In this document: piece by piece, positions 1,962 to 22,525 of the stretch
Numbering within the stretch: position 1 is the first letter of the stretch
How the letters are laid out: every line of letters starts with the position of its first letter
Source of the DNA: an uncultured Nocardioides sp.
GTDB taxonomy: Bacteria > Actinomycetota > Actinomycetes > Propionibacteriales > Nocardioidaceae
NCBI RefSeq assembly: GCF_947488025.1
Contig: NZ_CANKYS010000001.1
Coordinates: forward strand, 620,001 to 684,000
DNA length: 64,000 nt
Reading direction: 5' to 3'
Notes under the pieces: model-generated
The model's input: the letters and a program-made list of their open reading frames with translations, nothing else
Databases searched by the model: none
Told to the model about the DNA's origin: nothing
Position numbers and translations under genes: made by a program

Positions 1962-2731
1962 CGCGCGAGCACCCCCAGCTCCTCGAAGAGGTCGACGACC
2001 GCGGGTGCGCTCGCCGGCCCCTCACCCAGCACCTGCACGGTCGACGGCGACGGCGACGGCAGCACCAGCCGGACGCGGGACGGTCCGACCGGGTCGGTGG
2101 TGGGCCGGCGCTCCTCGATCGGCGCCTTCTTGGCCTTCATCCGCCCCGGGACGCTCGGGTAGCGGGGGTCGACGCCGCCCTCGAGGACCGTGACCACGGC
2201 CGGCAGGGGGAGCCGGAAGGTCTCGTGCCCGTCGGGCCCGGAGCCGCTCGCGGTCACCACGCCGTCGGTCACCGAGACGGTGCTGACGCCGTTGACGACG
2301 GGCCAGCCGAGCTCGTAGGCGAGGCGGATGCCGACCTGGAAGTCACCGGTGTCGGCCGCGTCGTTGCCGAGCAGCACCAGCTCGTGCGGCGTGCCTGCCG
2401 CCTCGTGGTCGCGGACGACCGCGGCGATCTCACGGGCGACGTCGGCCGGGCCGAACGCCTGCGGGTCGGCCACCACGTGGGTGGCTGCGGCACAGCCGAC
2501 GGCGAGCGCCGCGCGGAGCTGCTCCACGGCGTCGCCGTCGCCGAGCGTCATGACCGTCGCCGCACCATCGTCGGCGGCGATGCGGACCGCGAGCTCGACC
2601 GCGCACTCCTCGTGGGCGCTCGTCGTGAAGCCGGCGTACCGCCCGTCGACGCCCTGGGCGTCCTCGGTGAGGACGACCTCGCTCGTCGCGTCGACGACGC
2701 GCTTCACGCACACGAGCGGGTGGACCATCAC
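1958..2731 (-). CDS. etfB: electron transfer flavoprotein subunit beta
   Basis: EtfB (257 aa) binds AMP and is the partner of EtfA. Family features seen are the N-terminal VCVKRVVD, an EECAVELAVRIA helix, TLGDGDAVEQLRAAL, and the late ELGWPVVNGVS and LPAVVTVLEGGVDPRYPS segments ending in the MKAKK motif. It overlaps the upstream flavoprotein dehydrogenase gene (stop region 2728-2731) and the downstream etfA by ATGA junctions. This implies translational coupling and equal stoichiometry. The length matches the family. Confidence 0.95.
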   Translation of the reverse strand: MMVHPLVCVKRVVDATSEVVLTEDAQGVDGRYAGFTTSAHEECAVELAVRIAADDGAATVMTLGDGDAVEQLRAALAVGCAAATHVVADPQAFGPADVAREIAAVVRDHEAAGTPHELVLLGNDAADTGDFQVGIRLAYELGWPVVNGVSTVSVTDGVVTASGSGPDGHETFRLPLPAVVTVLEGGVDPRYPSVPGRMKAKKAPIEERRPTTDPVGPSRVRLVLPSPSPSTVQVLGEGPASAPAVVDLFEELGVLAR

Positions 2732-5250: not shown

Positions 5251-5283
5251 GGCTGGCTCCTGGTGCGGGAGGACTCACGATGT

Positions 5284-5319
5284 GTTGCGCATCGCGCAAC
5301 AGGTTGCGCTATGTGCGAC
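5284..5319. promoter_or_regulatory. paired 17-bp operator sites upstream of the dimethylglycine dehydrogenase operon
   Basis: The first site, 5284-5300, is the perfect inverted repeat GTTGCGC-ATC-GCGCAAC. The second, 5303-5319, is GTTGCGC-TAT-GTGCGAC, with 12 of 14 arm positions matching. The starts are 19 bp apart, about two helical turns. The same arrangement recurs at 7124, 13414 and 22505, so this is probably the operator of the IclR-family regulator encoded at 12605-13390; the link to that protein is inference. Confidence 0.7.
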
Positions 5320-5404
5320 GCCTCGAAATGTACGCCGCCGCCCCGGCGCACTGTCAAGGGTGCGCAGGGGCGGCGGCTCGGTCCGAGCGGGGTTCGCGTC
5401 CGGG

Positions 5405-7108: not shown

Positions 7109-7123
7109 GCCCGTCTCCCATCT

Positions 7124-7159
7124 GTTGCGCTTGGCGCAACGTTGTGCGTGACCTGCAAC
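7124..7159. promoter_or_regulatory. paired 17-bp operator sites upstream of the betaine-type BCCT gene
   Basis: Site one, 7124-7140, is the perfect repeat GTTGCGC-TTG-GCGCAAC. Site two, 7143-7159, is TGTGCGT-GAC-CTGCAAC, a weaker copy whose right half-site is 5 of 7. The start-to-start spacing is again 19 bp. The pair lies 16-51 nt before the ATG at 7108, where a repressor would block transcription or initiation. Confidence 0.65.
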
Positions 7160-7218
7160 AACGAAGAGTGCTCCGGCCCCGTGCGCGTGTCAAGGGTGGC
7201 GGTTCGGGACCGCGGTCG

Positions 7219-7266
7219 TCACTGGGTAGGTCACTGGGTACGTCACTCGGTACGTCACTCGGTGCG
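7219..7266. repeat. four tandem 12-bp repeats across the betT stop codon
   Basis: Four head-to-tail 12-mers of the type TCACTSGGTACG occupy 7219-7230, 7231-7242, 7243-7254 and 7255-7266. Because 12 is a multiple of three, each copy offers TGA in the betT frame on the minus strand; the first one read (7257-7255) is the real stop. The outer copies look like a slippage expansion with no coding effect. Confidence 0.7.
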
Positions 7267-9285
7267 CAGGAACTCCAGGTGGCGCTCGTACTGGTCGAGG
7301 CAGTCGTGGATGACCTGGTCGCTCGTGTAGCCCATCACGTCGTAGTCCTGCCCCCCGTCGAGGAGGTGCACCTCGAGCCGCGCGTACTGGTCGCGGTCGC
7401 CGATCATCCGCCCGCCGTAGGTCGGCACCGGTGAGAGCCGCACCTGCACCCGGTAGACGAACTGCCCCTCGTCGCCGTCGGTGGTGAGCTCGGCGTAGGG
7501 GGCTCCGGCCACGTCGCCGTGGACCACCGAGGCCCGGACGCCCATCGACGTGAGCTCCTCGGCGACCTCGCGCACGGCGGGCTCGACCGTCGAGCCGAGG
7601 TAGGCCGTGGCCGCCTCCTCGTCGACGAAGTTGATCGTCCTGGCGAGGCGGGACTTCCACGCCTTCCGCGTGTCGTGCCCGGCACCCGTGCGGGCCGAGA
7701 GCAGCGGAGACATCCCGCGTACGCCGGTGTCGGCCTTGCGTCCTTCGTTGCGGATCGCGCGGAACAGGCCCCACATGACGAGCACGAGCACGAACGCGAA
7801 CGGCAGGCCCATGATGATCGTGGCGTACTGCAGGGCCAGGATCCCGCCCACGGCGAGCATCGCGATGGTCAGCAGGCCGGTGATGCTGGCCCAGCTGATC
7901 CGCAGCCACGCGGCGCAGTCCTGCTGCACGTCGTGGAGCTCCGAGCACAGGTTGCCCATCACCAGCGCCGCGGAGTCGGCCGAGGTGATGTAGAACAGCA
8001 GGCCGACCACGACGGCCAGGAAGATGACGGCGTCGGCGAACGGGTAGTCGCGCAGCAGGTCGTAGAAGCCGACCCCGGTGAAGTCGACGGCCGCCTCGGC
8101 GAACGCGTCGTCGCCGTTGCGGACCTTGTCGATCGCGGCGTTGCCGAAGATCGAGATCCACATGACGATGTAGCTGAACGGGATCACCATCGTGCCGAGC
8201 ACGAACTGCCGGATCGTGCGGCCCCGGGAGATCCGGGCCAGGAACTGGCCCACGAACGACGCCCACGCCACCCACCACGCCCAGAAGAACAGCGTCCAGA
8301 GCTGCATCCACTCCTGGGTGTCGGTGAAGGCGAAGGTCTCCATCGACTTGGCCGGGAACGAGCGGACGAAGTCGCCCACGTTCATCACCACGGCGTTGAG
8401 CAGGAACGACGTCTGGCCGGTGATCAGCACCCAGCCGGCGAGCGCGAGGGCGAGCAGCACGTTGAGCTGGGACAGGAACCGGATGCCCTTGTCCACGCCG
8501 GTGGTGGCCGACACGGCAGCGACCGTGACCGCCAGGATCGCCAGGGCCGACTGGGCCGCCGTGCCCACGGGCACGCCGAAGATGACGTTGAGCCCGACGT
8601 TGAGGAACACCACGCCGATGCCGAGGCTGGTGGCCACCCCGAAGATCGTGCCGAGGACCGCCGCGGTGTCGACGACGTGGCCCAGCGGCCCCTCGACCCT
8701 CTTGCCGAAGACCGGGTAGAGCGCGGACCGGACGGCCAGCGGCAGGTTCTTGCGGTAGGAGAAGTAGGCCAGGGCCAGGCCCATCAGCGCGTACATCGCC
8801 CAGCCCGTGACGCCGTAGTGGAACAGCGTCCAGACCGTCGCGTCGCGAGCCGCGTCGACGGTCCCCGGCTCACCCACGGGCGGCGCGGTGTACTGCGAGA
8901 CCGGCTCGATGACGGAGTAGAACATCACGTCGGTGCCGATGCCGGCCGCGAAGAGCATGCTCGCCCACGCGAAGGTCGAGAACTCCGGGCGCGAGTGGTC
9001 GGGACCGAGGCGGATGCTGCCGTAGCGGGACATCCCGAGGAAGACGACGAAGACGACGATGGCCGTGGCCAGGGCGACGTAGAACCAGCCGAACCCGGTG
9101 CCGACCCTGCCCACGAGGTCGCCGATGACGCTCTCCGCGTTGGCCGGAGCCACGATCGCCCACAGCGTGACCAGGCACACGCCCGCGAACGCCGTGATGA
9201 AGACCGGCCACCGCACGTTGGGGCGGGGGGCACGCTCCGGGTGGGGATCGCCGGGTGGAGCGGAAGCGTCGAGCTGTGCGGTCAT
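7255..9285 (-). CDS. betT: BCCT family transporter, choline-type (BetT-like)
   Basis: This 676-residue BCCT carrier has a cytosolic C-terminal extension of about 140 residues, as in BetT-type choline transporters. Its signature is GIGTDVMFYSVIEP, with Asp119 where the neighbouring carrier has Gly118; an acidic residue here is associated with choline rather than betaine selectivity. Other conserved parts are FHYGVTGWAMYALMGL and TLFFWAWWVAWASFVGQFLARISRGRTIR. The gene starts 27 bp after the betA stop, so it is the last gene of the betB-betA-betT run and probably supplies choline to BetA. Confidence 0.9.
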   Translation of the reverse strand: MTAQLDASAPPGDPHPERAPRPNVRWPVFITAFAGVCLVTLWAIVAPANAESVIGDLVGRVGTGFGWFYVALATAIVVFVVFLGMSRYGSIRLGPDHSRPEFSTFAWASMLFAAGIGTDVMFYSVIEPVSQYTAPPVGEPGTVDAARDATVWTLFHYGVTGWAMYALMGLALAYFSYRKNLPLAVRSALYPVFGKRVEGPLGHVVDTAAVLGTIFGVATSLGIGVVFLNVGLNVIFGVPVGTAAQSALAILAVTVAAVSATTGVDKGIRFLSQLNVLLALALAGWVLITGQTSFLLNAVVMNVGDFVRSFPAKSMETFAFTDTQEWMQLWTLFFWAWWVAWASFVGQFLARISRGRTIRQFVLGTMVIPFSYIVMWISIFGNAAIDKVRNGDDAFAEAAVDFTGVGFYDLLRDYPFADAVIFLAVVVGLLFYITSADSAALVMGNLCSELHDVQQDCAAWLRISWASITGLLTIAMLAVGGILALQYATIIMGLPFAFVLVLVMWGLFRAIRNEGRKADTGVRGMSPLLSARTGAGHDTRKAWKSRLARTINFVDEEAATAYLGSTVEPAVREVAEELTSMGVRASVVHGDVAGAPYAELTTDGDEGQFVYRVQVRLSPVPTYGGRMIGDRDQYARLEVHLLDGGQDYDVMGYTSDQVIHDCLDQYERHLEFLRTE

Positions 9286-9312
9286 GTGGACCTCCGGGCT
9301 GGGCGGGACGGG

Positions 9313-11031
9313 TCACGTGGCGTTGCGAGGATCTCCGGGCGGGTAGAGCGGGGACGGGTCGCGGTGGCGGTAGTAGGGCACGTCGGCGGGCGACAGCGGG
9401 GTGTTGCCGAGGACCAGGTCCGCGGCCTTCTCGGCGACCATCATCACCGGGGCGTAGATGTTGCCGTTGGTGACGTAGGGGAAGACCGAGGCGTCGACGA
9501 CCCGAAGCCCCTCGGTGCCGTGCACCCGCAGGGAGAGGGGGTCCACGACCGACAGGTCGTCGGTGCCCATCTTCGCGGTGCACGAGGGGTGGAGGGCGGT
9601 CTCGGCGTCCTTCCGCACCCAGTCCAGGATCTCCTCGTCGGTCTCCACCGCAGTGCCCGGCGACAGCTCACCGCCGTTGAACGGTGCGAACGCCGGCTGG
9701 TTGAGGATGTCGCGCGCGACGTGCACCGCCTCGACCCACTCGCGCTTGTCGTTGACGGTGGAGAGGTAGTTGAAGAGCATCTTCGGCTTCTGGCGCGGAT
9801 CGCTCGAGGCGATCCGCACCCAGCCGCGGGTGTCGGCGTACATCGGGCCGATGTGCACCTGGTAGCCGTGGGCGTAGCGGTCCTGACCGGCGGGCGGCGA
9901 CCCGTCGTAGCGGATCGCGATCGGCAGGAAGTGGAACATGAGGTTGGGCCAGTCGACGTCCTCGTTGGACCGGGCGAAGCCACCGCCCTCGAAGTGGTTG
10001 GACGCCGCGGTGCCGGTGCGCTTGAACAGCCACTCGAGCCCGACCAGCGGGCGGTTGCGCCACTTGAGGCCCTCGACGATCGAGACCGGCTGGAGCGAGG
10101 CGTACTGGATGTAGACCTCGAGGTGGTCCTGGAGGTTCTCGCCGACGCCCGGCAGGTCGTGCACCATCTCCACGCCGAGCGGCTGGAGGTGCTCCGGGTT
10201 GCCGATGCCGGAGAGCTGGAGCAGCTGCGGGGAGTTGATCGCACCCCCGCAGAGGATGACCTCGCCGGCATCGACGCGGTCGTGCCTGCGACCGGCGCGC
10301 AGGTAGTCCACGCCGACCGCGCGCCTGCCCTCGAAGCGGACCTTGGTGACGTGGGCGAACGTCTCGACGGTGAGGTTCTTGCGGCCCATCACCGGGTGCA
10401 GGTAGGCGCGGGCCGCTGACATCCGTACGCCGTTGACGATGTTGCGGTCGAAGCGGCCGAAGCCCTCCTGCCGGTAGCCGTTGACGTCATCGGTCAGCGG
10501 GTAGCCGGCCTGCTGGGCGGACTCGAAGAACGCGCTGAAGAGCGGGTTCGTCGCCGGGCTCCGCTCGAGCTTGAGCGGCCCGGAGCCACCGCGCCACGCG
10601 TCGGCACCGACCATGCCGTCGGGCAGGACCAACGACTCCATGCGCTTGAAGTAGGGCAGGCAGTGCCGGTAGTCCCAGGTCTCCATGCCCGGGTCGGCGG
10701 CCCAACGCTCGTAGTCCATCGGGTTGCCGCGCTGGAAGATCATCCCGTTGATCGACGACGAGCCGCCGAGCACCTTGCCGCGGGCGTGGTAGACCCGGCG
10801 ACCGCCCATGGCGGGCTCCGGCTCCGACTCGTACCTCCAGTCGTAGAGCGGGTTGCCGATCGGGAAGGGCAGGGCCGCCGGGGCGTGGATGAGCGGGTCG
10901 AACCGGTCCGTGCGACCGGCCTCGAGCACCAGGACGCTCGTGGCGGGGTCGGCCGAGAGCCGGTTCGCGAGCGCGCACCCGGCGGAGCCGCCGCCGACGA
11001 TCACGAAGTCGTACGCCTTGCGCGTGCTCAT
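9313..11031 (-). CDS. betA: choline dehydrogenase (GMC oxidoreductase)
   Basis: This is a GMC-family flavoprotein of 572 aa. Its N-terminal FAD-binding motif is [17 protein letters not shown], followed by the GMC signatures [18 protein letters not shown] and, later, [16 protein letters not shown]. The active-site histidine is in HPSCTAKMG and the C-terminal segment reads [18 protein letters not shown]. BetA oxidises choline to betaine aldehyde, and in many cases further. I chose the ATG at 11031 because it overlaps the betB stop (ATGA) and puts the FAD motif near the N-terminus; a longer frame reaches 11163 but lies inside betB. The neighbours betB and betT make choline the likely substrate among GMC alcohols. 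Confidence 0.93.
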
Positions 11032-12506
11032 GAGCCCGACCCTCCGAACCATCGCTGCGGCTCGGGGGCGATGTTGTGCCAGACGTGCTTTGTCTCGCGG
11101 TACTCCTCCAGCCCGGCACGGCCGAGCTCGCGCCCGATGCCCGACTGCTTGTATCCGCCCCACTCCGCCTGGGCGACGTAGGGGTGGTAGTCGTTGATCC
11201 AGACCGTGCCCATCCGCAGCCCGGCCGCGACGCGTTGGCCCCGGCCCGCGTCCTGCGTCCAGACCGCGCCCGCGAGGCCGTAGATGCTGTCGTTGGCGAT
11301 CCGCACGGCCTCGGCCTCGTCGGTGAAGGTCTCGACCGTGAGCACCGGGCCGAAGGACTCGTCCTGAGTCACGCTCATCGAGCTGGTGCAGCGGTCGAGC
11401 ACCGTCGGGAGGTAGTAGAAGCCGTCAGCCAGGGCGGGGTCGTCCGGGCGGGCCCCGCCGCAGCGCAGCACCGCCCCCTCCGCGAGACCGGCCGCGACGT
11501 AGGCCTCGACCTTCTCGCGGTGCGCGGCGCTGGTCAGCGGCCCGGTCTCGGCGGCCTCGTCGAACGGTCCGCCGAGGCGGATGTCGCGGGCGCGGGCGAC
11601 GAGGTCGTCGACGAAGCGGTCGTGGAGCGACTCCTCGACGAGGAGGCGGGCGCCGGCCGAGCACACCTGGCCGGAGTGCAGGAACACCGCCGTCAGCGCG
11701 AAGTCGAGTGCGGTGTCGTAGTCGGCGTCGGCGAAGACGATGTTGGGGTTCTTGCCGCCGAGCTCGAGGGCGACCCGCTTCACGGTGCCCGACGCGGCGG
11801 CCATGATGCGCTTGCCGGTGGCCAGGCCACCCGTGAAGGAGACCAGGTCCACGCGGGGGTCCTCCGAGAGCGGGGCTCCCGCGGTCGGTCCCTCCCCCAG
11901 CACCAGGTTGGCCACGCCCGCGGGGAGCCCCGCCTCCTCGAGCACCCGCATGAGGTGGACGGCGGTGTGCGGCGTGATCTCGCTCGGCTTGAGGACGAAC
12001 GTGTTGCCCGCGGCCAGGCACGGCGCGACCTTCCACGCGACCTGCAGCAGCGGGTAGTTCCACGGCGTGATCAGCCCGCAGACCCCGACGGGCTCGTGCA
12101 CCACCCGGCTGACCACGGACGGGTTGCCGGTGTCGACGACCCGCCCGCCCTCGGCGTCGGCCGCGTGACCGAAGTGGCGGAACACCGACACGACGTCGTC
12201 GACGTCGTACCCGCCCTCGACCAGCCGCTTGCCGGTGTCGAGGGACTCCGCGCGGGCGACGGCGTCCCGGTCGCGCTCGAGCAGGTCGGCGACACGGAGC
12301 AGCAGGTCGCCGCGCTCCCGGCTCGACCACCCGGGCCACGGTCCCTCGTGGAACGCCCGGTGGGCCGCCGCCACGGCCAGCTCGGTGTCTCCGGCGTCCG
12401 CCTCGGCGACCTCGCCCACCAGTGAGCCGTCCGCCGGGCAGCGGATCTCCCGCCGACCACCCCCGCGGGCCGGGATCCAGCTGCCGTCGATGTACAGGTC
12501 GGCCAC
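11028..12506 (-). CDS. betB: betaine-aldehyde dehydrogenase
   Basis: This NAD(P)-dependent aldehyde dehydrogenase (492 aa) oxidises betaine aldehyde to glycine betaine. Conserved elements are [15 protein letters not shown], the glycine-rich [12 protein letters not shown], the catalytic glutamate in [12 protein letters not shown], the catalytic cysteine in [14 protein letters not shown], and [12 protein letters not shown]. The C-terminus has the usual [13 protein letters not shown]. It is 98 bp downstream of the iclR gene on the same strand and overlaps betA by 4 bp. No operator pair lies between iclR and betB, so transcription from the iclR promoter is plausible. Confidence 0.93.
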
Positions 12507-12604
12507 GGTCGCCTCGCTCTCTCTGCGGAAGGATCCTGCTGCCCGGGTCCGGGCGTCAAGGTGTGGGCTGGTCCGGCGATCCCCCCGTCGGCCGGGCCCC
12601 TACG

Positions 12605-13390
12605 TCAGCGGTGCCCCCAGCCGAGGCGGTGGGAGACCTCGGACGCGGCCGCGACGACGCGGCGTACGACCTCCTCCACCTGCTCCTCGGGGAGCCGGAA
12701 CGACGGACCGGACACGCTCATCGACGCGACCACGTCCCCGTGCGCGTTGCGGACGGGTGCGGCCACCGCCGTGAGCCCGACCTCGAGCTCGTCGACCGCG
12801 ACCGCGTAGCCCTGCTCACGCACGCGCGCCACCTCCTCGCGCAGCTCCCGGCGTCCGGTGATGGTGCGCGGCGTGTAGGTCGCCAGCGTGCCGAGGACGG
12901 CCTCGAGGCCGGCGTCGTCGAGGCCGGCGAGGAGCACCTTGCCGTTGCTCGTCGCGTGCAGGGGGATGTGCTGGCCGACCCAGTTGTGCGGCTGGAGGGC
13001 CGATGACCCCGCGACCTGGTCGAGGTAGAGCGCAGAGCTCTCGGCGAGCACCGCGATGTTGACGGTCTCCCCCGTGTCGGCGGCGAGCTGGCGGGCGATC
13101 GGCCGTGCCTCCTGCACGAGGTCGAGCCGGGCCGTGGTGGCACCGGCGAGTCGCAGGATGCCGACGCCGAGGCGGTAGCGGCCCCGGTCGGCGGTCTGCT
13201 CCACGAGCCGGTGCGCCTCGAGGGTGGCGACCAGGCGGAAGGCCGTGCTCTTGTGCACGCCGAGCTCCGTGGCGATCTCGGTGACGCCGGACTCGCCCGT
13301 GCGGGCCAGCACCTCGAGGATCCCGAGCGCCCGGTCGACCGACTGCACGCCGGCGCCCGTCACGGCGGGGCTGGAGACGGTGTCCACCAT
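12605..13390 (-). CDS. IclR family transcriptional regulator
   Basis: This 261-residue regulator has an N-terminal winged helix-turn-helix (residues about 15-80, including ELGVHKSTAFRLVATLEAHRLV) and an IclR effector domain (GKVLLAGLDDAGLEAVL, REEVARVREQGYAVAVDELEVGLTAVAAPV). It sits divergently from fhs, and the gap holds two GTTGCGC-type sites 24-59 nt before its start. It is the best candidate to bind the same paired sites at 5284, 7124 and 22505, which would give one regulon for choline uptake, betaine and dimethylglycine oxidation and C1 recycling. The effector is unknown; choline, betaine or dimethylglycine are guesses. Confidence 0.92.
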   Translation of the reverse strand: MVDTVSSPAVTGAGVQSVDRALGILEVLARTGESGVTEIATELGVHKSTAFRLVATLEAHRLVEQTADRGRYRLGVGILRLAGATTARLDLVQEARPIARQLAADTGETVNIAVLAESSALYLDQVAGSSALQPHNWVGQHIPLHATSNGKVLLAGLDDAGLEAVLGTLATYTPRTITGRRELREEVARVREQGYAVAVDELEVGLTAVAAPVRNAHGDVVASMSVSGPSFRLPEEQVEEVVRRVVAAASEVSHRLGWGHR

Positions 13391-13449: not shown

Positions 13450-13520
13450 ACCGCTGTCACCCCCAGCGCGGCCCCACCGCGCGAGGAGCCACCGTGCCGC
13501 CCACCGGCGAGGAGCCCGCC

Positions 13521-15200
13521 ATGCAGTCCGACATCGAGATCGCCAACGCCGCCGTCCTGCGACCGATCCGCGAGATCGCCGAGGAGACGCTCGGGATCAG
13601 CGAGGAGCACCTCGTCCCCTACGGCCACCACAAGGCCAAGGTCGACGTCGGCTACCTCACCTCGCTGGCCGACCGACCGCTCGGCCGGCTCGTGATGGTC
13701 ACCGCCCTGTCTCCCACGCCACCGGGCGAGGGCAAGACGACCACGACCGTCGGCCTGACGGACGCGCTCCACGGCCTCGGTCACCGGACCGTCGCCTGCC
13801 TGCGCGAGCCGTCGATGGGGCCCGTGTTCGGCATGAAGGGTGGTGCGGCCGGGGGCGGCTGGAGCCAGGTCGTGCCGATGACCGACATCAACCTGCACTT
13901 CACCGGCGACTTCGCCGCCATCGCGGCCGCCAACAACCTGCTCGCGGCGCTCATCGACAACCACGTCCACCACGGCAACGAGCTCGACATCGACGTACGC
14001 AGCGTGACCTGGAAGCGCGTCGTGGACACCAACGACCGGGCGCTGCGCGAGGTCGTCGTCGCACTGGGCGGGCACGCCAACGGCTTCCCGCGGGAGGACG
14101 GCTTCGACATCGTCGTGGCCTCCGAGCTGATGGCGATCTTCTGCCTCACCGAGTCGTGGGCCGACCTCAAGAAGCGCATCGGCGACATCGTCATCGGCTA
14201 CACCCGGGCGATGGCTCCGGTCACCGCCCGCGACCTCGGCGCCGAGGGCGCCATGGCCGCGCTGCTGCGCGACGCCCTCGCCCCCAACCTCGTCCAGACC
14301 CTGGAGGGAGCACCCGCCTTCGTCCACGGCGGTCCGTTCGCCAACATCGCCCATGGCTGCAGCTCGGTGATGGCCACCCGCGCGGGCCTGCGGCTGGCCG
14401 ACATCGTCGTCACCGAGGCCGGCTTCGGCGCCGACCTCGGCGCCGAGAAGTTCGTCGACATCAAGTGCCGCAAGTCCGGCCTGCGTCCGGACCTGGCCGT
14501 CGTGGTCGCGACCGTGCGCGCCCTGAAGTACCACGGCGGTGTCGCGCTGGCCGACCTCGGCCGCGAGGACGTCGCGGCCGTCGAGGCCGGCATGACCAAC
14601 CTGCGCCGCCACCTCGCCAACATCCGTGACGTCTACGGCGTCCCCGCCGTCGTCGCGGTGAACCGCTTCCCCACCGACACCGACCGTGAGGTCGACCGGG
14701 TGGTCGCGCTCGTGGCCGACGAGGGAGTGCGGGCCTTCCCCGCCACCCACTTCGCCGACGGGGGCAACGGCGCGAAGGGCCTTGCGGAGGGCGTCCTGGC
14801 GTCGCTGGCCGAGCCGTCGCCGTACGAGTTCTCCTACACCTACGACGACGACCTCTCCCTGACCGCCAAGGTCGAGGCGATCGCGACCCGGCTCTACGGC
14901 GCCGGCCTCGTGACGTGGGACGCCAGGGCGCGCCGGCGCCTGCAACGCATCGAGCGCGACGGCTACTCGCAGCTGCCGGTCTGCGTCGCCAAGACCCAGT
15001 ACTCCTTCTCCACCGACCCGGCGGCGCTGGGCGCGCCGTCGGGCCACGAGCTGCACGTGCGGGAGGTACGTCTCTCCGCGGGCGCGGGGTTCGTGGTCGT
15101 CGTGTGCGGCGACATGATGACCATGCCCGGACTGCCCAGGGACCCCTCGGCCGCGCGCATCGACCTCGCGGACGACGGGACGATCCTGGGGCTCAGCTGA
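13521..15200 (+). CDS. fhs: formate--tetrahydrofolate ligase
   Basis: Fhs (559 aa from this start) interconverts 10-formyl-THF plus ADP/Pi and formate plus THF plus ATP. The family P-loop is [14 protein letters not shown]; other hallmarks are [57 protein letters not shown] and the C-terminal [10 protein letters not shown]. In this cluster it most likely runs towards formate and ATP, disposing of C1 units released by demethylation; direction is inference. The ATG at 13521 follows GAGGAG by 6 nt and matches the usual N-terminus (SDIEIA). A GTG at 13494 in the same frame, also with GAGGAG, would add nine residues. Confidence 0.95.
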
Positions 15201-15219: not shown

Positions 15220-16659
15220 TCAGTCGCCGAGCTCGGCGCGCCGACGGATGACGTAGTCCTCGAGCTCCTCGCGGACCGCGTCGTCGATCGGCGGCTGCTC
15301 GTAGTCCTCGAGCGCCTTCTTGTAGGCCACCTGGGCGCGGTCGTTGGCGTCGTGGCCGCCGTTGCGCATCCAGCGCTCGTAGTTCTCCGAGGACGACAGC
15401 AGCGGGCGGTAGAAGCACGTGCGGAAGCGCTCCATCGTGTGCATCGCCCCGAGGAAGTGCCCACCGTGACCGACCTCCTCGTGCGCCCCGAAGGCCATCG
15501 AGTCCTCGTCGATCTCCAGGGGCGTGAACTCGTGGCGGAGCATCTGGAGCAGCTCGACGTCGACGATGAACTTCTCGTAGCCGGCGACCAGGCCGCCCTC
15601 GAGCCAGCCGGCGGAGTGCATCACCCAGTTGGCACCGGCCAGGAAGGTCGGCATCAACGTCATCAGCGCCTCGTAGCCGGCCTGCGCGTCCGCCACCTGC
15701 GAGGAGGTGAGGCCGCCTCCGGTGCGGAACGGGAGCCCGAAGTGGCGGGCGATCTGCCCGGTGCAGAGCAGGCCGAGCCCCGACTCCGGCGTGCCGAAGG
15801 TCGGCGACCCGGACTGCATGTCGATGTTGGAGAGGAACGACCCGAAGATCACCGGCGTACCGGGCCGGACCAGCTGGGACAGCGCGATCCCCGACAGGGC
15901 CTCGACGATCTGCTGGACCAGGGCGGCGGGGATGGTCACCGGTGACATCGCGCCCATCAGGATGAAGGGCGTCAGCACCACCGGCTGGCCGGCGGCGGAG
16001 TACTCGAGCTGGGCCTCCAGCATGCGATCGTCCCAGCGCAGCGGCGAGTTGCAGTTGATCAACGAGATCGTCGCCGGCGTCTCCTCGATCGCCTCGCGCG
16101 ACCCGAACAGGATCGAGGTCATCGCGATCGTGTCCGCGGCATTGACGCCCGAGACGACGTTGCCCATGTAGACCTTGTCCGTCAGCGTCTGCAGGGCGTA
16201 CGTCATGTCGAGGTGACGGCTGTCGAGCGGCGTGTCGTTGGGCTCGCAGATCACTCCCCCGGCGGAGTCGAGCACCGGGAAGGACTGCGCCAGCTTGGTG
16301 AAGCTGCGGAAGTCCTCCATCGTCGCGTCGCGGCGTACGTCGCCCTGCCGCACGAACGGCGGCCCGTAGACCGCGCCGAAGGCCATCGAGTCACCGCCGA
16401 TGTGGATGGTGTGCTGGGGGTTGCGCGCCTGCACGTCGAACTCGCGCGGCGCCTTGGCGACCTGCTCGAGCACGAAGTCGGGATCGAGGAAGACGGTGTT
16501 GTCCTCGACGCGCTGCCCCGCCCGGCGGAAGAGCTCGAGCGCTCGCTCGTCCATGAACTCCACGCCGATCTCGGTCATCAGCCGGCGCCACCCGCGATCG
16601 AGGGTCGCCATGGCCTCCTCGGACAGCACCTCGTAGCGCGGCATCGCGTTGCGGAACAC
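15220..16659 (-). CDS. MttB-superfamily methyltransferase, non-pyrrolysine (glycine betaine methyltransferase-like)
   Basis: This 479-residue member of the trimethylamine methyltransferase (MttB) superfamily has no in-frame amber codon, so it belongs to the non-pyrrolysine branch, whose characterised members demethylate quaternary amines such as glycine betaine, proline betaine or carnitine onto a corrinoid protein. Recognisable stretches are LINCNSPLRWDDRMLEAQ, PFILMGAMSPVTIPAAL, LGLLCTGQIARHFGLPFRTGG and the C-terminal GGHFLGAMHTMERF. I chose the GTG at 16659 because GGGAGG lies 6 nt upstream; ATG 16644 is an alternative. It is divergent from the iclR-corrinoid operon with a shared palindrome at 16701-16730. 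Surrounding betaine genes make betaine the leading substrate. Confidence 0.88.
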   Translation of the reverse strand: MFRNAMPRYEVLSEEAMATLDRGWRRLMTEIGVEFMDERALELFRRAGQRVEDNTVFLDPDFVLEQVAKAPREFDVQARNPQHTIHIGGDSMAFGAVYGPPFVRQGDVRRDATMEDFRSFTKLAQSFPVLDSAGGVICEPNDTPLDSRHLDMTYALQTLTDKVYMGNVVSGVNAADTIAMTSILFGSREAIEETPATISLINCNSPLRWDDRMLEAQLEYSAAGQPVVLTPFILMGAMSPVTIPAALVQQIVEALSGIALSQLVRPGTPVIFGSFLSNIDMQSGSPTFGTPESGLGLLCTGQIARHFGLPFRTGGGLTSSQVADAQAGYEALMTLMPTFLAGANWVMHSAGWLEGGLVAGYEKFIVDVELLQMLRHEFTPLEIDEDSMAFGAHEEVGHGGHFLGAMHTMERFRTCFYRPLLSSSENYERWMRNGGHDANDRAQVAYKKALEDYEQPPIDDAVREELEDYVIRRRAELGD

Positions 16660-16700
16660 CGGGACCTCCCTTGACCTCGACTGACGACGGCTTCTAGCCT

Positions 16701-16730
16701 CATGATGTGGAACCAAGGTTCCACATCATG
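16701..16730. promoter_or_regulatory. perfect 30-bp palindrome, probable IclR operator
   Basis: Two 14-bp arms (CATGATGTGGAACC and its exact complement) are separated by AA. The core TGGAACC-AA-GGTTCCA resembles IclR-type operators of the form TGGAA-N-TTCCA. It lies between the divergent MttB-like gene and the iclR gene at 16767, and differs from the GTTGCGC sites, so the second IclR protein probably has its own target. Confidence 0.75.
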
Positions 16731-16766
16731 GAACGACTGGGAACCCCTCCGAAAGAGGACTCACGC

Positions 16767-17540
16767 ATGAGCGAGACGGCCACCGGCACCAGGGCGCTGG
16801 ACCGCGCCGCCGACCTGGTCGCCACGGTCGTCCACGCCGACGAGCCGATGTCCTTCGCCGAGCTCCAGGACGCGAGCGGGCTCGCCAAGTCGACGACCTC
16901 GCGACTGCTCACCGCGCTCGAGCGCTCCGGCCTGCTCGAGCGGGACCCCTCCGGGTCCTACGTCGCCGGCCGGCTCTTCTGGCTCTACGCCGCGCGCCAC
17001 GACCCGTGGGAGGAGCTGGTCCGGCTCGCCCGGCCGGTGATGGACCAGCTCGGCGCCGACACCGGTGAGACCGTGCACCTCAGCGTCTCCCGTGGCGACC
17101 GGGTGGTGCAGGTGGCGCAGGTCGACTCGACCTTCCTGCTCGGCACCCGCGACTGGACCGACATCGAGGTGCCGGCGCACTGCTCGGCCCTCGGGAAGGT
17201 CCTGCTGGCCTGGGGTGCGCTGGAGCTCCCCGACGGCGAGCTCGAGCGGCCGACGCCCGCCACGCTCCAGGATCGCGAGGCCGTACGCCGCGACGGCGTG
17301 CGGTGCCGCGAGCGCGGTTATGCGTTGACAGAGGACGAGCTGGAGATCGGCCTGACCGGAATCGCCGTGCCCGTCTTCGGCATCCGCGACGACGTCGTCG
17401 CCTCGCTCGGGATCTCCGGCCCCACCCCCCGGCTGGCGCAGCGGCTCGACGAGCTCGGCCGCCGCCTGCTGGACCAGTCCACCGCGCTGTCCTCCCTGCT
17501 GCGCGGCCCCGCCCGTCCGACCGAGGAGGTGGTCGCATGA
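16767..17540 (+). CDS. IclR family transcriptional regulator (corrinoid methyltransferase cluster)
   Basis: This 257-residue IclR protein has a winged helix (residues about 10-70, with LQDASGLAKSTTSRLLTALERSGLLER) and an effector domain (HCSALGKVLLAWG, RERGYALTEDELEIGLTGIAVPVFGIRDD). The ATG at 16767 follows AGAGGA by about 8 nt; an upstream in-frame ATG at 16707 falls inside the palindromic operator and is unlikely. Its stop overlaps the start of the corrinoid-protein gene (ATGA), making it the first gene of the methyltransferase operon. It probably regulates both its own operon and the divergent MttB-like gene. Confidence 0.9.
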   Translation: MSETATGTRALDRAADLVATVVHADEPMSFAELQDASGLAKSTTSRLLTALERSGLLERDPSGSYVAGRLFWLYAARHDPWEELVRLARPVMDQLGADTGETVHLSVSRGDRVVQVAQVDSTFLLGTRDWTDIEVPAHCSALGKVLLAWGALELPDGELERPTPATLQDREAVRRDGVRCRERGYALTEDELEIGLTGIAVPVFGIRDDVVASLGISGPTPRLAQRLDELGRRLLDQSTALSSLLRGPARPTEEVVA

Positions 17541-18202
17541 CCCCCGAGGACATCCTGCAGGCCCTCTACGACGAGACACTGGTGGGCAACGCCCCGCGGG
17601 TGCTCGAGCTGACCAACCAGGGGCTCGACCTGTCGATGGAGCCGCAGACGCTGCTCTTCGACGCGTTGATCCCGTCGCTGGAGGAGGTCGGCGCCCGCTT
17701 CGAGCGCGGCGACTTCTTCGTCCCGGAGATGCTCATCGCCGGTCGCGCGATGGCAGGAGCCATGGAGCGGCTGCGCCCGTTGCTCGCCGAGACCGGGGTG
17801 GCCACCGTCGGCAAGTTCCTGATGGGCACCGTCAAGGGCGACGTGCACGACATCGGCAAGAACCTCGTCAACATCATGCTCGAGGGCGCCGGGTTCGAGG
17901 TGATCGACCTCGGCGTGCAGGTGGCGCCGGAGAAGTTCGTCAGCGCGATCGACGAGCACCAGCCCGACATCGTCGGCTTCTCGGCGTTCCTCACCACCAC
18001 GATGCCGATGTTCAAGGCCAACATGAACGCCCTCGAGAAGGCCGGGATGCGCAACGACGTGATCGTCATGGTCGGCGGCGCGCCCGTCACCCAGGAGTAC
18101 GCCGATGCCGTCGGGGCCGACGGCTACGCGGCCGACGCCTCGCAGACGGTCAAGCGCGCCAAGAGCCTGCTCGAGGCGAAGCGCACGAAGGTCCCCGCCT
18201 GA
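17537..18202 (+). CDS. corrinoid (cobalamin-binding) methyltransferase protein, MtgC/MtbC-like
   Basis: This 221-residue protein has a helical cap domain (residues 1-85, with ERGDFFVPEMLIAGRAM) and a Rossmann B12-binding domain with the base-off DxHxxG motif (Asp102, His104, Gly107), followed by GFSAFLTTT and VGGAPV. It is the methyl carrier between the MttB-like enzyme and the methyl-THF methyltransferase. It overlaps the iclR gene by 4 bp and the next gene by 1 bp. All corrinoid landmarks are intact and the length is typical for MtbC/MtgC-type proteins. Confidence 0.93.
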   Translation: MTPEDILQALYDETLVGNAPRVLELTNQGLDLSMEPQTLLFDALIPSLEEVGARFERGDFFVPEMLIAGRAMAGAMERLRPLLAETGVATVGKFLMGTVKGDVHDIGKNLVNIMLEGAGFEVIDLGVQVAPEKFVSAIDEHQPDIVGFSAFLTTTMPMFKANMNALEKAGMRNDVIVMVGGAPVTQEYADAVGADGYAADASQTVKRAKSLLEAKRTKVPA

Positions 18203-19086
18203 TGAGCATCGCCGAGCCGCTGCGCACCGTCCTGCGCTCGGCCTCGCGCGAGGTCGTGATCGGGCACGACACCCGGTTCACGATCATCGGCGAGCGGATC
18301 AACCCCACCGGTCGCCGGATCTTCCAGGAGCAGCTGCGCGCGGGGGACTTCTCCGCGATCGAGCGCGACGTGAAGGCCCAGGTCGAGGGCGGCGCCGACG
18401 TCCTCGACATCAACATGGGCGTGCCGCTCACCGACGAGCCCGACCTGCTGGCGAAGGCCATCACGATGGTCCAGGGCCTCACCGACCTGCCCGTGTGCAT
18501 CGACTCCTCGGTGGTCGAGGCCCTCGAGGCCGGCCTCACCGCGTACGAGGGACGCGCCCTCGTCAACTCCGTCACCGCGGAGGACGAGCGCCTCGAGCTG
18601 ATCCTCCCGCTGGTGAAGAAGCACGACGCGGCGATCATCGCGCTGCCCAACGACCACGACGAGATCCCGATGGAGGCCGACAAGCGCCTCGAGCTCACCG
18701 CCAAGATCGTCCGGGTCGCCACCGAGGAGTTCGGCATCGCGCAGGCCGACATCGTCATCGACCCGCTGGCGATGCCGATCGGCGCCGACACCACGACGAG
18801 CCTGGTGACCTTCGAGGTGATGCGCCGCATCCGCGACGACTTCGGGGTGAACATGACCTGCGGAGCCTCCAACGTGTCCTTCGGCATGCCCGGACGCCAC
18901 ACCCTCAACGCCGCCTGGCTGCCGATGGCGATGGCGTCGGGCCTCACCAGCGCGATCATGGACGCGCGGACGCCGCAGGTGGTGGAGGCGGTCAAGGCCG
19001 CCGACCTGTTCCTGGGCCACGACGACTGGGGCATGGCCTGGATCTCCGCCCACCGGGCCAAGCAGGCAGCCGTCGAGGGCGCGTGA
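18202..19086 (+). CDS. methyltetrahydrofolate:corrinoid methyltransferase (MtgA/pterin-binding family)
   Basis: This 294-residue TIM-barrel of the pterin-binding (MeTr/DHPS) family contains IIGERINPTGRRIFQE, GGADVLDINMGVP, VCIDSSVVEALEAGL, NSVTAEDERL, DPLAMPIGAD and CGASNVSFGMPGR. These are the THF-binding signatures of methyl-THF:corrinoid enzymes such as MtgA, AcsE and the MetH pterin domain. It takes the methyl group from the adjacent corrinoid protein to THF, yielding 5-methyl-THF. It overlaps the upstream gene by 1 bp and lies 10 bp before the activator gene. It lacks the homocysteine-binding domain of MetH, so methionine synthesis is not its job. Confidence 0.93.
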   Translation: MSIAEPLRTVLRSASREVVIGHDTRFTIIGERINPTGRRIFQEQLRAGDFSAIERDVKAQVEGGADVLDINMGVPLTDEPDLLAKAITMVQGLTDLPVCIDSSVVEALEAGLTAYEGRALVNSVTAEDERLELILPLVKKHDAAIIALPNDHDEIPMEADKRLELTAKIVRVATEEFGIAQADIVIDPLAMPIGADTTTSLVTFEVMRRIRDDFGVNMTCGASNVSFGMPGRHTLNAAWLPMAMASGLTSAIMDARTPQVVEAVKAADLFLGHDDWGMAWISAHRAKQAAVEGA

Positions 19087-19096
19087 CGGCGTCCCG

Positions 19097-21088
19097 ATGA
19101 GCCGACCGCCCGACGGGCCGGACTTCTCGCTCGCCGACGTCGCCCGCGAGGGCCTCATCGAGCGGCCGGGAGCCGAGCCCGTACCCCACGACGGCTCCGG
19201 CCGCGTCGACCTGTCCTTCACCGTCCACGGCACGGCCGAGGACGGCGCGGAGGTCCCGCCGACGCTGCGCGGCGTACGCGTGCCCCCGGGCGTGACCGTC
19301 TTCGACGCCGCCTCGTGGAACGGCATCGCGATCGACTCGACCTGCGGCGGCCACGGCACCTGCCACAAGTGCCGCATCCAGGTCACCTCCGACGGCGAGG
19401 TCCCCCTCACCCGCCACGACGTCCGCACGTTCACCCCCGACCAGCTCTCCGCAGGCTGGCGGCTCGGCTGCCTGCTCCACGCCACCCGCGACCTGGCCGT
19501 CGAGGTCCCGCCGCTGACCACGCGACCCAAGGCCGCGACGGTGGGCATCGGTCGCCAGGTCATCCTCCGGCCGGCCCTGCAGAAGCGCTACGTCGAGCTC
19601 GACGAGCCGACGCTCGCCGACCAGCGCACCGACCTCGTCCGGCTCACCGACGCCATCGACGACCTCGAGCTGACCGCCGACCTCCACGTCCTGCGTCGGC
19701 TCTCCACGGTGCTGCGCCAGGCCGACTTCAAGGTCACCGCCGTGGTCCTCGACGAGGCGCTCGTCGACGTCGAGCCCGGCGACACCACCGCCATCCGCTA
19801 CGCGATCGCCTTCGACCTCGGCACCACGACCGTCGTCGGCACCCTCCTCGACGTCGGCACCGGGACCCCGCTGGCCGTCGCGTCCAGCCTCAACGCCCAG
19901 CAGCCCTTCGGCGGCGACGTCATCACCCGGATCAGCGCCACGATGATGGACCCGGATGCGCTCGGCCGCCTCCAGCAGGCCGCCGGCGCCACCCTCGCCG
20001 ACCTGGCGCGGCGCGTGTGCCGCGAGGCGGGCATCGAGCCCACCGACGTCTACGAGGTGGCGGTCGCCGGCAACGCGACGATGACCGCCCTCGTGCTGGG
20101 CATCGACCCCGAGCCGCTGGGGGTCGCCCCGTTCGTCATGTCGGCGGCCCAGCCGCCCTCCGTGCTGGCCTCGGAGATCGGGCTCGTCCTCCATCCGCGG
20201 GCACGCGCGTTCTTCTTCCCGGCGCTCGGCGCCTACGTCGGCGGCGACATCGTCGCCGGCATGCTCGCCACCGGCATGGACCGCGACAAGCGCACCCGCC
20301 TGTTCATCGACGTCGGCACCAACTGCGAGATCGTGCTGAGCGACGGCGAGACGCTCCTCTCCACCGCTGCTCCCGCCGGCCCGGCCTTCGAGGGCGGCGC
20401 GATCCGCTGCGGCATGCGCGCCGCGGACGGGGCGATCGAGGTGGTCAAGGTCGACCCGCACACCGACGACCCGGCCGAGGCGGTCCGGCTCGGCGTGATC
20501 GGTGACGTCGAGCCCAGGGGGCTGTGCGGCTCCGGCCTGGTCGACGCCGTCGCCGAGCTGGTGCGGGTGGGACTGCTCGACCACACCGGACGCCTGGTGC
20601 CCGACGAGGAGGCGAAGGGGATCGCCCCGGCGCTGGCCGACCGCCTGGCCCTCGTCGGCGAGGAGCGGGTCTTCCTGCTGCACCGGCCGGCTCCCGACGC
20701 CGAACCCGCCGAGTGCGTCTACCTCTCGCAGCGCGACGTCCGCGAGCTGCAGTTCGCCAAGGCTGCGATCTCCACCGGCTGGTCGCTGCTGCTCGACGAG
20801 CTCGGGCTCGAGCACCGCGACGTCCAGCAGGTGCTGCTCGCCGGGTCGTTCGGCAGCTACCTCTCCCCCGCATCGGCCGTCCGCATCGGCCTGGTGCCGC
20901 GGCTTCCCGTGCTGCGGATCGTCGCTGCCGGCAACGTCGCCGGCGAGGGGGCGAAGATGGCCCTGCTGTCGGTGCGCGAGCGCGCCGGCGCCCTGGCGCT
21001 GCTGGAGGAGGTGACGTATGTCGAGCTCTCCGACCGTCCCGACTTCAACGACGCCTTCGTCGAGCAGCTCTCGTTCGGTCCGCCGTGA
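19097..21088 (+). CDS. corrinoid activation protein with 2Fe-2S and ASKHA domains (RACo-like, DUF4445)
   Basis: This 663-residue protein has an N-terminal ferredoxin-like domain with Cys83, Cys89, Cys92 and Cys125 (C-x5-C-x2-C...C, a plant-type 2Fe-2S site). A linker and a large ASKHA domain follow, with FDLGTTTVVGTL (residues 239-250), VAGNATMTALVLG, FIDVGTNCEIVLSDG and LLAGSFGSYLSP. Proteins of this build use ATP to reduce accidentally oxidised Co(II) corrinoid back to Co(I). It lies directly downstream of the corrinoid and methyltransferase genes, which is the expected position. The first 40 residues are extra relative to the Fe-S domain. Confidence 0.92.
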   Translation: MSRPPDGPDFSLADVAREGLIERPGAEPVPHDGSGRVDLSFTVHGTAEDGAEVPPTLRGVRVPPGVTVFDAASWNGIAIDSTCGGHGTCHKCRIQVTSDGEVPLTRHDVRTFTPDQLSAGWRLGCLLHATRDLAVEVPPLTTRPKAATVGIGRQVILRPALQKRYVELDEPTLADQRTDLVRLTDAIDDLELTADLHVLRRLSTVLRQADFKVTAVVLDEALVDVEPGDTTAIRYAIAFDLGTTTVVGTLLDVGTGTPLAVASSLNAQQPFGGDVITRISATMMDPDALGRLQQAAGATLADLARRVCREAGIEPTDVYEVAVAGNATMTALVLGIDPEPLGVAPFVMSAAQPPSVLASEIGLVLHPRARAFFFPALGAYVGGDIVAGMLATGMDRDKRTRLFIDVGTNCEIVLSDGETLLSTAAPAGPAFEGGAIRCGMRAADGAIEVVKVDPHTDDPAEAVRLGVIGDVEPRGLCGSGLVDAVAELVRVGLLDHTGRLVPDEEAKGIAPALADRLALVGEERVFLLHRPAPDAEPAECVYLSQRDVRELQFAKAAISTGWSLLLDELGLEHRDVQQVLLAGSFGSYLSPASAVRIGLVPRLPVLRIVAAGNVAGEGAKMALLSVRERAGALALLEEVTYVELSDRPDFNDAFVEQLSFGPP

Positions 21089-21668
21089 CCGGGTCGCCCT
21101 GATCGCCTGCGGGGCCCTCGCCCAGCCCGCTGCGGCCGTCGTCGACCGCCACGGCTGGGCCGTGGACGTCCATCCGCTCCCACCGCTGCTGCACAACCAC
21201 CCCGAGCGGATCGCGGGCGAGGTGCGCACGCTGGCGGCGCGGCTCGCGGCGACGTACGGCCGGGTCGTCGTCGGCTACGCCGACTGCGGCACCTACGGCG
21301 CCCTCGACGACGTGTGCCGCGAGCTCGGGCTCACCAGGCTCCCCGGCCTCCACTGCTACGACGTCTATGCCGGCGCGTCCCGCCTCGAGCGCTTCTTCGA
21401 CGAGCAGCCCGGCACCTACCTGCTCACCGACTTCCTGGTGCGGTCCTTCGCCCGCACCGTGGTCCAGGAGATGGGGCTCGACCGCTACCCCGAGCTGCGG
21501 GAGGCCTACTTCGGCAACTACACCCGCGTCGTCTGGCTGGCCCAGGCGCCCGACGACGAGCTGCGCGAGCTGGCCGACGGTGCAGCCGCGACGATCGGGC
21601 TGCCCCTCACGGTCGTGGAGACCGGCGACCACGGGCTCGAGCAGGCCCTGGCCGGCCTCGTCACCTAG
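21018..21668 (+). CDS. DUF1638 domain protein of unknown function
   Basis: This protein of 216 aa has the DUF1638 pattern: ALIACGAL near the N-terminus, PLPPLLHNHPERI, a VVVGYADCGTYGALD segment with conserved Asp and Cys, GLHCYDVYAG, GTYLLTDFLVRSF and FGNYTRVVWLAQ. The family is common beside corrinoid methyltransferases, but its role is not established; the conserved Cys, His and Asp residues could bind a metal or thiol. The ATG at 21018 lies inside the activator gene (71-bp overlap), yet it has a very strong GGAGGAGG 7 nt upstream and is the only start in this frame before the domain. Translation is therefore coupled to the activator. Confidence 0.85.
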   Translation: MSSSPTVPTSTTPSSSSSRSVRRDRVALIACGALAQPAAAVVDRHGWAVDVHPLPPLLHNHPERIAGEVRTLAARLAATYGRVVVGYADCGTYGALDDVCRELGLTRLPGLHCYDVYAGASRLERFFDEQPGTYLLTDFLVRSFARTVVQEMGLDRYPELREAYFGNYTRVVWLAQAPDDELRELADGAAATIGLPLTVVETGDHGLEQALAGLVT

Positions 21669-22525
21669 ACATCGCGCAGTCGTTCGAGCATCTCGGTGCG
21701 CCAGGCCTCGGTCTCGGCGACCTGGTTGAACGTGAAGACGTGCAGGCCCTCGACGAGCGCTCCGTCCTCCCCCAGTGCGGGCGCGCACTTCTCCAGGAAG
21801 GACTCGCCGGTGAACCCGCCCGGTGCGGCGAGCCGGGCGAAGAGGCCCTTGTTCTTGGCGAGGAACTTCGTCGACTCGCCCACCCCGATCCTGGTCGCCA
21901 TCGCCAGCAGCTTGGTGCGCTCGACCGGCCCGGGCAGCCCCAGCAGCAGCGGCATCGCGACACCCCGGGCGCGGAGCCTGCGCACCCAGTCGCGCACGAC
22001 CGCGGGGTCGAAGGTGAGGTTGCTGACGATGTGGGTGGCGTAGCGCCGCTTGTCCCACATGGACTGCACGGTGAGGTCGTCGTGGATGGTCGGGTGCGAC
22101 TCGGGGTAGCCGGTGATCCCGACGTGGGCGAACGGCGAGCCGAGCTCCTTCAGGTCCTCGAGCAGCGCGAGCGCGTCGGGGTAGTCACCGACCGCCTCGG
22201 CGTCGCCGCCGGGCACGAACACCCGGCTGATGCCCTTGCCGCGCAGCCGTTCGGCGATCTCGGCCAGCTCGGCACGTCCGGACACCATGCGTGCGGCCAG
22301 GTGGGGGACGACGACGTAGCCGTGCCCGGTGAGGCGCTCGGACAGGTCGAGGGTGGCCTCCAGCCCCTTGGACGGCGACGCGGTCACCGTGACCGCACGG
22401 TCGCGGGGCAGGTGGGTGAGGACCTTGTCCTCGGTGGCCGCGGTGGGCAGCACCTCGTAGCGGGCGTTCTCCAGCAGCCGGACCACGGTCGCCGCAGCTC
22501 GCTTGTTGCGCATGGAGCAACTCAT
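21665..22525 (-). CDS. divergent methylenetetrahydrofolate reductase (MetF-like)
   Basis: This 286-residue TIM-barrel flavoprotein of the MTHFR family is considerably diverged from classical MetF: the usual SxTWGAGG and HLTC stretches are replaced by VTVTASPSKG and VPHLAAR. The VFVPGGD loop, the GYPESHP motif and the C-terminal HVFTFNQ remain. In this cluster it probably oxidises the 5-methyl-THF made from betaine to methylene-THF, opposite to biosynthetic use; direction is inference. Start choices are ATG 22525, ATG 22513 or a GTG near 22486. A GTTGCGC-type operator pair (22505-22540) overlaps the first two, which would suit a leaderless or very short leader. Its 3' end overlaps the convergent DUF1638 gene by 4 bp. 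Confidence 0.8.
   Translation of the reverse strand: MSCSMRNKRAAATVVRLLENARYEVLPTAATEDKVLTHLPRDRAVTVTASPSKGLEATLDLSERLTGHGYVVVPHLAARMVSGRAELAEIAERLRGKGISRVFVPGGDAEAVGDYPDALALLEDLKELGSPFAHVGITGYPESHPTIHDDLTVQSMWDKRRYATHIVSNLTFDPAVVRDWVRRLRARGVAMPLLLGLPGPVERTKLLAMATRIGVGESTKFLAKNKGLFARLAAPGGFTGESFLEKCAPALGEDGALVEGLHVFTFNQVAETEAWRTEMLERLRDV

Follow-up and report, generated by a model that had tools for sequence, protein, structure and literature searches.

A role for DUF1638 proteins (PF07796) was described genetically in Phaeobacter inhibens, in which B12-dependent synthesis of methionine requires the DUF1638 gene PGA1_c13340 as well as a RamA-like gene (Price et al. 2018, PMC5764234). The fitness of PGA1_c13340 correlates with that of a RACo/RamA-like gene, the mutant phenotype is rescued by methionine and was attributed by the authors to B12 reactivation, and the presence of DUF1638 and RamA-like genes was reported to be nearly identical across 158 alphaproteobacterial genomes (PMC5764234). 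The authors stated that they could offer no specific mechanism for DUF1638. In a 2025 PNAS paper, the DUF1638 protein SPO2162 of Ruegeria pomeroyi was reported to be more abundant on N-osmolytes and the reactivation idea was repeated (PMC12478193); words beginning with "actinobacter" are absent from the main text of this paper. A DUF1638 protein of S. meliloti is simply listed in a table of PhaR-dependent changes (PMC12542648). Out of 5.39 million papers searched, DUF1638 is mentioned in these three and PF07796 in one. The preliminary description of the present locus, which held a role of DUF1638 in corrinoid handling to be undescribed, was thus mistaken, since genetic evidence tying DUF1638 to B12 reactivation had been published in 2018 and cited in 2025.

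The physiological electron source of the ATP-dependent corrinoid activators was stated to be unknown in 2020 and in 2025 (PMC7448270, PMC12155760), and RamQ with ATP and the artificial reductant Ti(III) citrate suffices for activation in vitro (PMC12155760), so that a further partner may act in vivo. The papers on RamQ and RamM name no DUF protein and report in-vitro reduction of the cognate corrinoid protein by each of these activators, and DUF1638 would therefore be dispensable when a strong reductant and a reconstituted corrinoid protein are supplied. EmtC, encoded in the estradiol methyltransferase cluster, was said to show no resemblance to known proteins (PMC7448270).

The DUF1638 gene and its genomic island

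The window (the whole stretch of DNA analysed, 64,000 nucleotides) contains one ORF matching PF07796, with a score of 77 bits (cut-off 27; E 2e-21) over profile positions 2-160 of 161, which passes the Pfam gathering cut-off across the domain, and a genome-wide profile search gave this single match. The GC contents at codon positions 1, 2 and 3 were 0.74, 0.51 and 0.94, the same coding pattern as in the adjoining genes. The ORF is a real gene. The coordinates of the features are collected in Table 1.

Table 1. Features of the window and PF13769 observations at two other loci.
Feature	Coordinates	Strand	Basis or remark
Choline/betaine catabolic genes	981..13390	-	profile matches
ETF pair and two BCCT transporters	within 981..13390	-	profile matches
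Dimethylglycine-dehydrogenase-like DAO-GcvT protein	2731-5250	-	profile matches
Choline dehydrogenase	9316-11163	-	profile matches
Betaine-aldehyde-dehydrogenase-like protein	11028-12506	-	below curated cut-offs
IclR (second one)	12605-13390	-	profile matches
Formate-THF ligase	13494..15200	+	start 13494 or 13521
MttB-superfamily methyltransferase, divergent	15220..16716	-	uninterrupted frame, non-pyrrolysine; MtgB-like by inference
IclR-family regulator, operon head	16707..17540	+	profile match
MtgC-like corrinoid protein	17537..18202	+	B12-binding cap and B12-binding domains; start inferred from ORF translation
MtgD-like methyl-THF:corrinoid protein methyltransferase	18202..19086	+	PF00809; PRK07535 above cut-off
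RACo-type ATP-dependent corrinoid activator	19097..21088	+	Fer2 and RACo linker, middle and ASKHA C-terminal domains
Shine-Dalgarno-like GGAGGAGG, within RACo coding sequence	21004..21011	+	six bases 5' of ATG 21018
DUF1638 (PF07796) protein, 216 aa	21018..21668	+	ORF list, profile match, model, codon GC
Methylene-THF reductase-like protein, convergent	21665..22525	-	29 bits vs cut-off 24
PF13769 observations	L112:8580-10859; L130:6745-8076		

The stop codon TGA of the activator gene was located at 21086-21088, which gives an overlap of exactly 71 bp with the DUF1638 ORF. No second in-frame ATG, GTG or TTG was present before the first conserved motif (IACGAL) of the window protein, and GTG 21085, which overlaps the activator stop, was rejected as a start codon because it is out of frame. 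Both the sole start inside the activator gene and the near-perfect GGAGG preceding it, as given in the preliminary description, were confirmed. The start was compared among related loci (the best 80 of 149 confirmed), which came mostly from Nocardioides and its relatives, with some Intrasporangiaceae and a few MAGs with other labels; one locus (L111) was dropped from this comparison, its first conserved Cys lying too near the contig edge. As a result, a GGAGGT-ATG start within the activator gene was found in 75 of the 80 loci examined, the window copy counted, or in 75 of 79 when L103 is omitted, a miss that begins too close to DUF1638 to contain RACo. The other four (L094, L098, L099 and L101) contain RACo and no overlapping start, and other candidate starts exist there. 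In 50 of the 75 loci no ATG, GTG or TTG other than the overlapping ATG precedes the first conserved Cys, and the other 25 have at least one later candidate. The Tyr codon that supplies this ATG was TAT in 76 of the 79 RACo-containing loci, and elsewhere in these RACo stretches Tyr was encoded by TAT in 34 of 473 cases and by TAC in 439. Since it recurs in 75 loci, the overlapping start is not due to chance; the codon bias looks like dual coding under selection in this lineage, the loci being closely related and not independent events.

The preliminary description had also read the overlap as a sign of function. This reading was abandoned, because gene order varies elsewhere, the corrinoid-protein gene preceding DUF1638 in five annotated Pseudomonadota loci, and because four of the 79 RACo loci have no overlapping start; judged from these comparisons, the 71-bp overlap is a trait of the lineage. 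Residues 1-23 of DUF1638 (21018-21086) form a Ser-rich tail that is read from the conserved C-terminus of the activator in another reading frame, and the model described below has low confidence over about the first 20 residues. The tail seems to be a by-product of the overlap.

Upstream of DUF1638, the activator scored 417 bits against the AcsV model (NF040756, the activator of the CODH/ACS system), under the cut-off of 800, and was not assigned to AcsV. The best model for the corrinoid protein was MtgC with 195 bits, below the curated cut-off of 370 (the domain scans of this gene used 17534-18199), and the MtgB model had no match among the window genes in the profile scan. Because the MtgC models scored below their cut-offs and MtgB was not matched, betaine is a putative substrate of the operon. 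The region 981-22525 looks like a choline/betaine catabolic island, whose entry step would be a first, corrinoid-dependent demethylation. The arrangement is largely retained in the 80 related loci, with RACo in 78, the methylene-THF reductase-like gene in 77, MtgD in 73, MtgC in 72 and MttB in 66; at every locus without one of these genes, the fetched stretch stops within 4.6 kb on that side. The genome that carries the island and its corrinoid methyltransferase route has Nocardioides as its nearest relatives in this comparison. No description of a corrinoid betaine route in Actinomycetota was found in the titles among the literature matches listed, and Nocardioides is not mentioned in the papers among the matches listed for corrinoid betaine demethylation. 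Corrinoid-dependent betaine demethylation is likely in many soil Actinomycetota.

Invariant residues and predicted fold

An alignment of 118 homologues, consisting of 81 near homologues including the window protein, 7 proteobacterial proteins and 30 from other Actinomycetota, showed that exactly five residues, C31, H59, C90, C113 and Y168, are identical in all 118, and Y87 in 117. D115, D155 and C100 are invariant in the near group only. Of the conserved Cys, Asp and His residues pointed out earlier, the Cys and His were thus borne out, and the Asp were not, as D115 and D155 vary across the family.

An AlphaFold2 model built with 77 sequences had a mean pLDDT of 88.6 and a pTM of 0.83, with alternating strands and helices. 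In this model C31 directly follows strand 26-30, H59 follows strand 49-53, C90 follows strand 82-86, and helix 113-118 starts with C113. In a parallel sheet, residues that come after the strands usually lie along the same rim, which makes it plausible that C31, H59, C90 and C113 form one shared site. This Cys3His set is predicted, with fair probability, to form a metal or Fe-S site; alternatively, the four invariant Cys and His residues could be catalytic or bind a structural Zn. From the strand order and the fold matches, the fold was read as two-lobed and Rossmann-like. The fold types compared (racemase, carbamoyltransferase and PBP-I) gave middling matches and named no relative: in the VIA fold comparison the best Z was 7.8 over 99 residues (rmsd 2.5), and in Foldseek against solved structures the query-normalised TM was at most 0.32 among the 50 matches listed, the best E of 7e-4 having a TM of 0.27. 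A search for a solved relative by sequence gave a best E of 0.008, to part of a viral glycoprotein, which was taken as chance, and no credible candidate.

Gene neighbourhoods and co-occurrence with RACo

Profiles of the window genes were run over the flanks of DUF1638, up to 7-8 kb each way, at 27 loci, namely 7 plasmid loci from Alpha- and Betaproteobacteria (7 of 10 matches fetched, two of the seven unannotated) and 20 loci from the 55 Actinomycetota genomes with DUF1638, chosen by family and contig size, several of these stretches being cut by contig ends. MtgC was found at 22 loci, MtgD at 20, RACo at 19 and MttB at 14, with at least one of the four at 24. All seven plasmid loci carry MtgC and RACo; in the Actinomycetota, MtgC was near DUF1638 at 15 of 20 loci, where genome-wide counts predict a corrinoid protein by chance at 0.45 of 20, and RACo at 12 of 20. 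The neighbourhood survey proposed in the preliminary description therefore shows co-occurrence of DUF1638 with MttB and corrinoid genes. None of MtgC, MtgD, RACo and MttB was found within the searched stretch at three loci (L125, L126 and L131), of which L126 is cut by a contig end. DUF1638 directly follows RACo at L120, L121, L122 and L138, and directly follows the corrinoid gene at, for example, L112, L113, L134 and L136; at L112, RACo comes directly after DUF1638. A URO-D gene is near DUF1638 at five loci (L128, L132, L133, L135 and L137).

Two neighbourhoods contain further genes beside DUF1638. At L119:5347-8316, DUF1638 lies between a pyridine-nucleotide disulphide oxidoreductase gene and an FMN-reductase-like gene, and at L133:8158-8754 a CobW-type GTPase is encoded two ORFs from DUF1638; the products may possibly be suppliers of electrons or metal.

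The distribution was determined in a sample of 246 Actinomycetota genomes, in which a strong CdhD match (best E below 1e-30) was taken as CODH/ACS. DUF1638 was present in 55 genomes, RACo in 96 (95 over the cut-off) and MTTB in 41. RACo was present in 54 of the 55 DUF1638 genomes, the exception being G115 (98% complete), and MTTB in 36, so that the activator, not a single substrate enzyme, is the constant partner of DUF1638. The tie to corrinoid methyl-transfer systems, closest to the RACo-type activator, was thus upheld. Fisher values of 1e-26 for DUF1638 with RACo and 6e-24 for DUF1638 with MTTB are descriptive only, the genomes being related.

RACo occurred without DUF1638 in 42 genomes, 33 of which have a strong CdhD match. 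Among the 187 genomes without strong CdhD, RACo was present in 28 of 29 DUF1638 genomes and DUF1638 in 28 of 37 RACo genomes. The nine RACo genomes with neither strong CdhD nor DUF1638 include one with a RACo match below the cut-off (G150) and five genomes that are 81-92% complete. Three genomes of one genus (G131, G164 and G185; 99-100% complete) have RACo, no strong CdhD and no DUF1638, and constitute a natural control. Of the strong-CdhD genomes with RACo, those with DUF1638 had at least two RACo matches in 21 of 26 cases, and those without it had one match in 21 of 33 and more in 12, counts that may be inflated where frame breaks split matches. We read this pattern to suggest that the activator of CoFeSP needs no DUF1638, and that the activator of MtgC-type proteins usually does; DUF1638 would mostly track activators of corrinoid proteins other than CoFeSP.

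A second family, PF13769 ("Virulence factor"), was found in 18 of the 246 genomes, all 18 of which have DUF1638. In 11 of these 18 genomes PF13769 is either joined to DUF1638 or separated from it by no more than about 110 bp. At L130, PF13769 is joined to the C-terminus of DUF1638, the frame being read through with no stop between; an N-terminal fusion of the same DUF1638 was rejected, as the frame before ATG 6745 crosses the MtgC gene in the wrong frame. In Terrarubrum flagellatum, PF13769 is fused to the N-terminus of RACo. PF13769 also occurs in Bacillus subtilis and is absent from the genome of the window, and no mention of it was found in the literature search, most subscription journals being outside that search. 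The family appears to be misnamed and to serve as an accessory in the same corrinoid system.

Proposed function and comparison with known systems

An association of DUF1638 with RACo-dependent reactivation is quite likely. On balance we lean towards DUF1638 being a Cys3His accessory, probably with a metal or Fe-S cluster, of RACo-dependent Co(II)-to-Co(I) reactivation of the corrinoid; its metal, its role in electron transfer and any contact with RACo or MtgC are inferred. During betaine demethylation, the methyl group would pass from the MttB-like protein to Co(I)-MtgC and then via MtgD to THF. The Co(I) of MtgC would occasionally be oxidised to inactive Co(II), and RACo with ATP would regenerate it, assisted in this reductive step by soluble DUF1638. 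The site of Cys31, His59, Cys90 and Cys113 (with Tyr168), placed where the first strands of the two-lobed Rossmann-like fold reach their carboxyl ends, would most likely hold a metal or small Fe-S cluster, and DUF1638 may either relay electrons to RACo or dock and prepare the Co(II) corrinoid. An electron relay to RACo in particular is doubtful. A ferredoxin or flavodoxin was suggested as the donor for an O-demethylase activator (PMC6739815), a simple alternative that would leave no electron role for DUF1638. Counting against the accessory role are the lack of a nearby RACo at 8 of the 20 Actinomycetota loci, the three of 27 loci with no partner, the nine RACo genomes with neither strong CdhD nor DUF1638, and G115 with DUF1638 alone.

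The preliminary description had put loading, activation and methyl transfer side by side; activation is favoured by the distribution, and the equal weighting did not hold. The chief alternative is loading or repair, in which DUF1638 would deliver cobalamin to apo-MtgC or strip off upper or lower ligands that are damaged, with cobalt ligated by the Cys and His residues, and thereby yield a substrate that RACo can reduce. It would give an identical phenotype of the P. inhibens mutant (PMC5764234), in-vitro studies use reconstituted MthC and so skip loading (PMC12155760), and MtgC, which precedes DUF1638 in the Pseudomonadota loci mentioned above, is the neighbour found most often (22 of 27 loci vs 19 for RACo). 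However, the corrinoid-protein model matches some sequence in 211 of the 246 genomes, mostly below the cut-off, and DUF1638 is present in only 55. Proteins with a built-in MetH-type reactivation domain also manage without DUF1638: PF02965 was found in 7 of 14 control genomes and PF07796 in one, a methanogen outside these seven. In addition, essentiality data led Price et al. to argue against a role in B12 synthesis (PMC5764234). Loading or repair is thus possible but rather unlikely.

It is improbable that DUF1638 is a Zn or other metal enzyme component of methyl transfer itself, such as an extra acceptor or an MtgC-THF shuttle. In its favour, Zn is commonly bound by Cys3His sets, Zn is present in several corrinoid methyltransferases, and corrinoid methyl-transfer genes or RACo are near DUF1638 at 24 of the 27 loci. 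The operon, however, already holds the donor MttB, the corrinoid protein and the acceptor MtgD, and DUF1638 adjoins unrelated methyltransferase genes (MTTB and URO-D). Moreover, phosphocholine:THF methyl transfer was reconstituted in vitro with a donor enzyme, a corrinoid protein and an acceptor enzyme plus activator (PMC12155760).

A hitchhiker or regulator with an indirect function, carried along by inheritance of the operon, is likewise improbable: the 80 related loci, mostly from Nocardioides and its relatives, share one operon and the co-occurrence counts come from related genomes with no correction for descent, but genomes with both DUF1638 and RACo carry 16 different family labels in the phylum sample, the genes are linked again, in different orders, in Alpha- and Betaproteobacteria, and a polar effect is unlikely in P. 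inhibens because its DUF1638 gene is the last in the operon (PMC5764234).

The invariance of the five residues and the co-occurrence of DUF1638 with RACo, with CODH/ACS as the main exception, are new here. With an invariant Cys3His set, and travelling with the activator except mainly in CODH/ACS genomes, DUF1638 is a concrete candidate for the component missing from corrinoid activation. A bolder and speculative extension of the reactivation role is that DUF1638 is the missing physiological partner of RACo, its Cys3His cluster feeding or gating low-potential electrons for corrinoid proteins with no Fe-S domain of their own, unlike CoFeSP, and that PF13769 is a second, misnamed part of this system.

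PGA1_c13340 and SPO2162 belong to the same Pfam family as the window protein and likewise have a corrinoid protein, a pterin-binding methyltransferase and a RACo/RamA-like activator as partners. In P. inhibens and R. pomeroyi, DUF1638 adjoins the corrinoid gene, whereas it overlaps the activator gene in the window. The P. inhibens protein serves a split methionine synthase, whereas the genome of the window has a MetH-type reactivation domain (PF02965) elsewhere, in a 1291-aa frame, and the operon looks built for betaine; a role of this DUF1638 copy in methionine synthesis is therefore unlikely. The MtgBCD systems of marine Pseudomonadota and Desulfitobacterium resemble the window in having an MttB-superfamily enzyme, MtgC-like and MtgD-like proteins, an activator and folate C1 genes; unlike them, the island is actinobacterial, includes choline import and oxidation genes, and carries the overlapping DUF1638. 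Finally, the RACo-CoFeSP system of CODH/ACS uses an activator of the same ASKHA family as the window RACo, but the 33 strong-CdhD genomes noted above have RACo without DUF1638. CoFeSP carries its own [4Fe-4S] domain, whereas the MtgC-like protein of the window shows B12-binding domains only.
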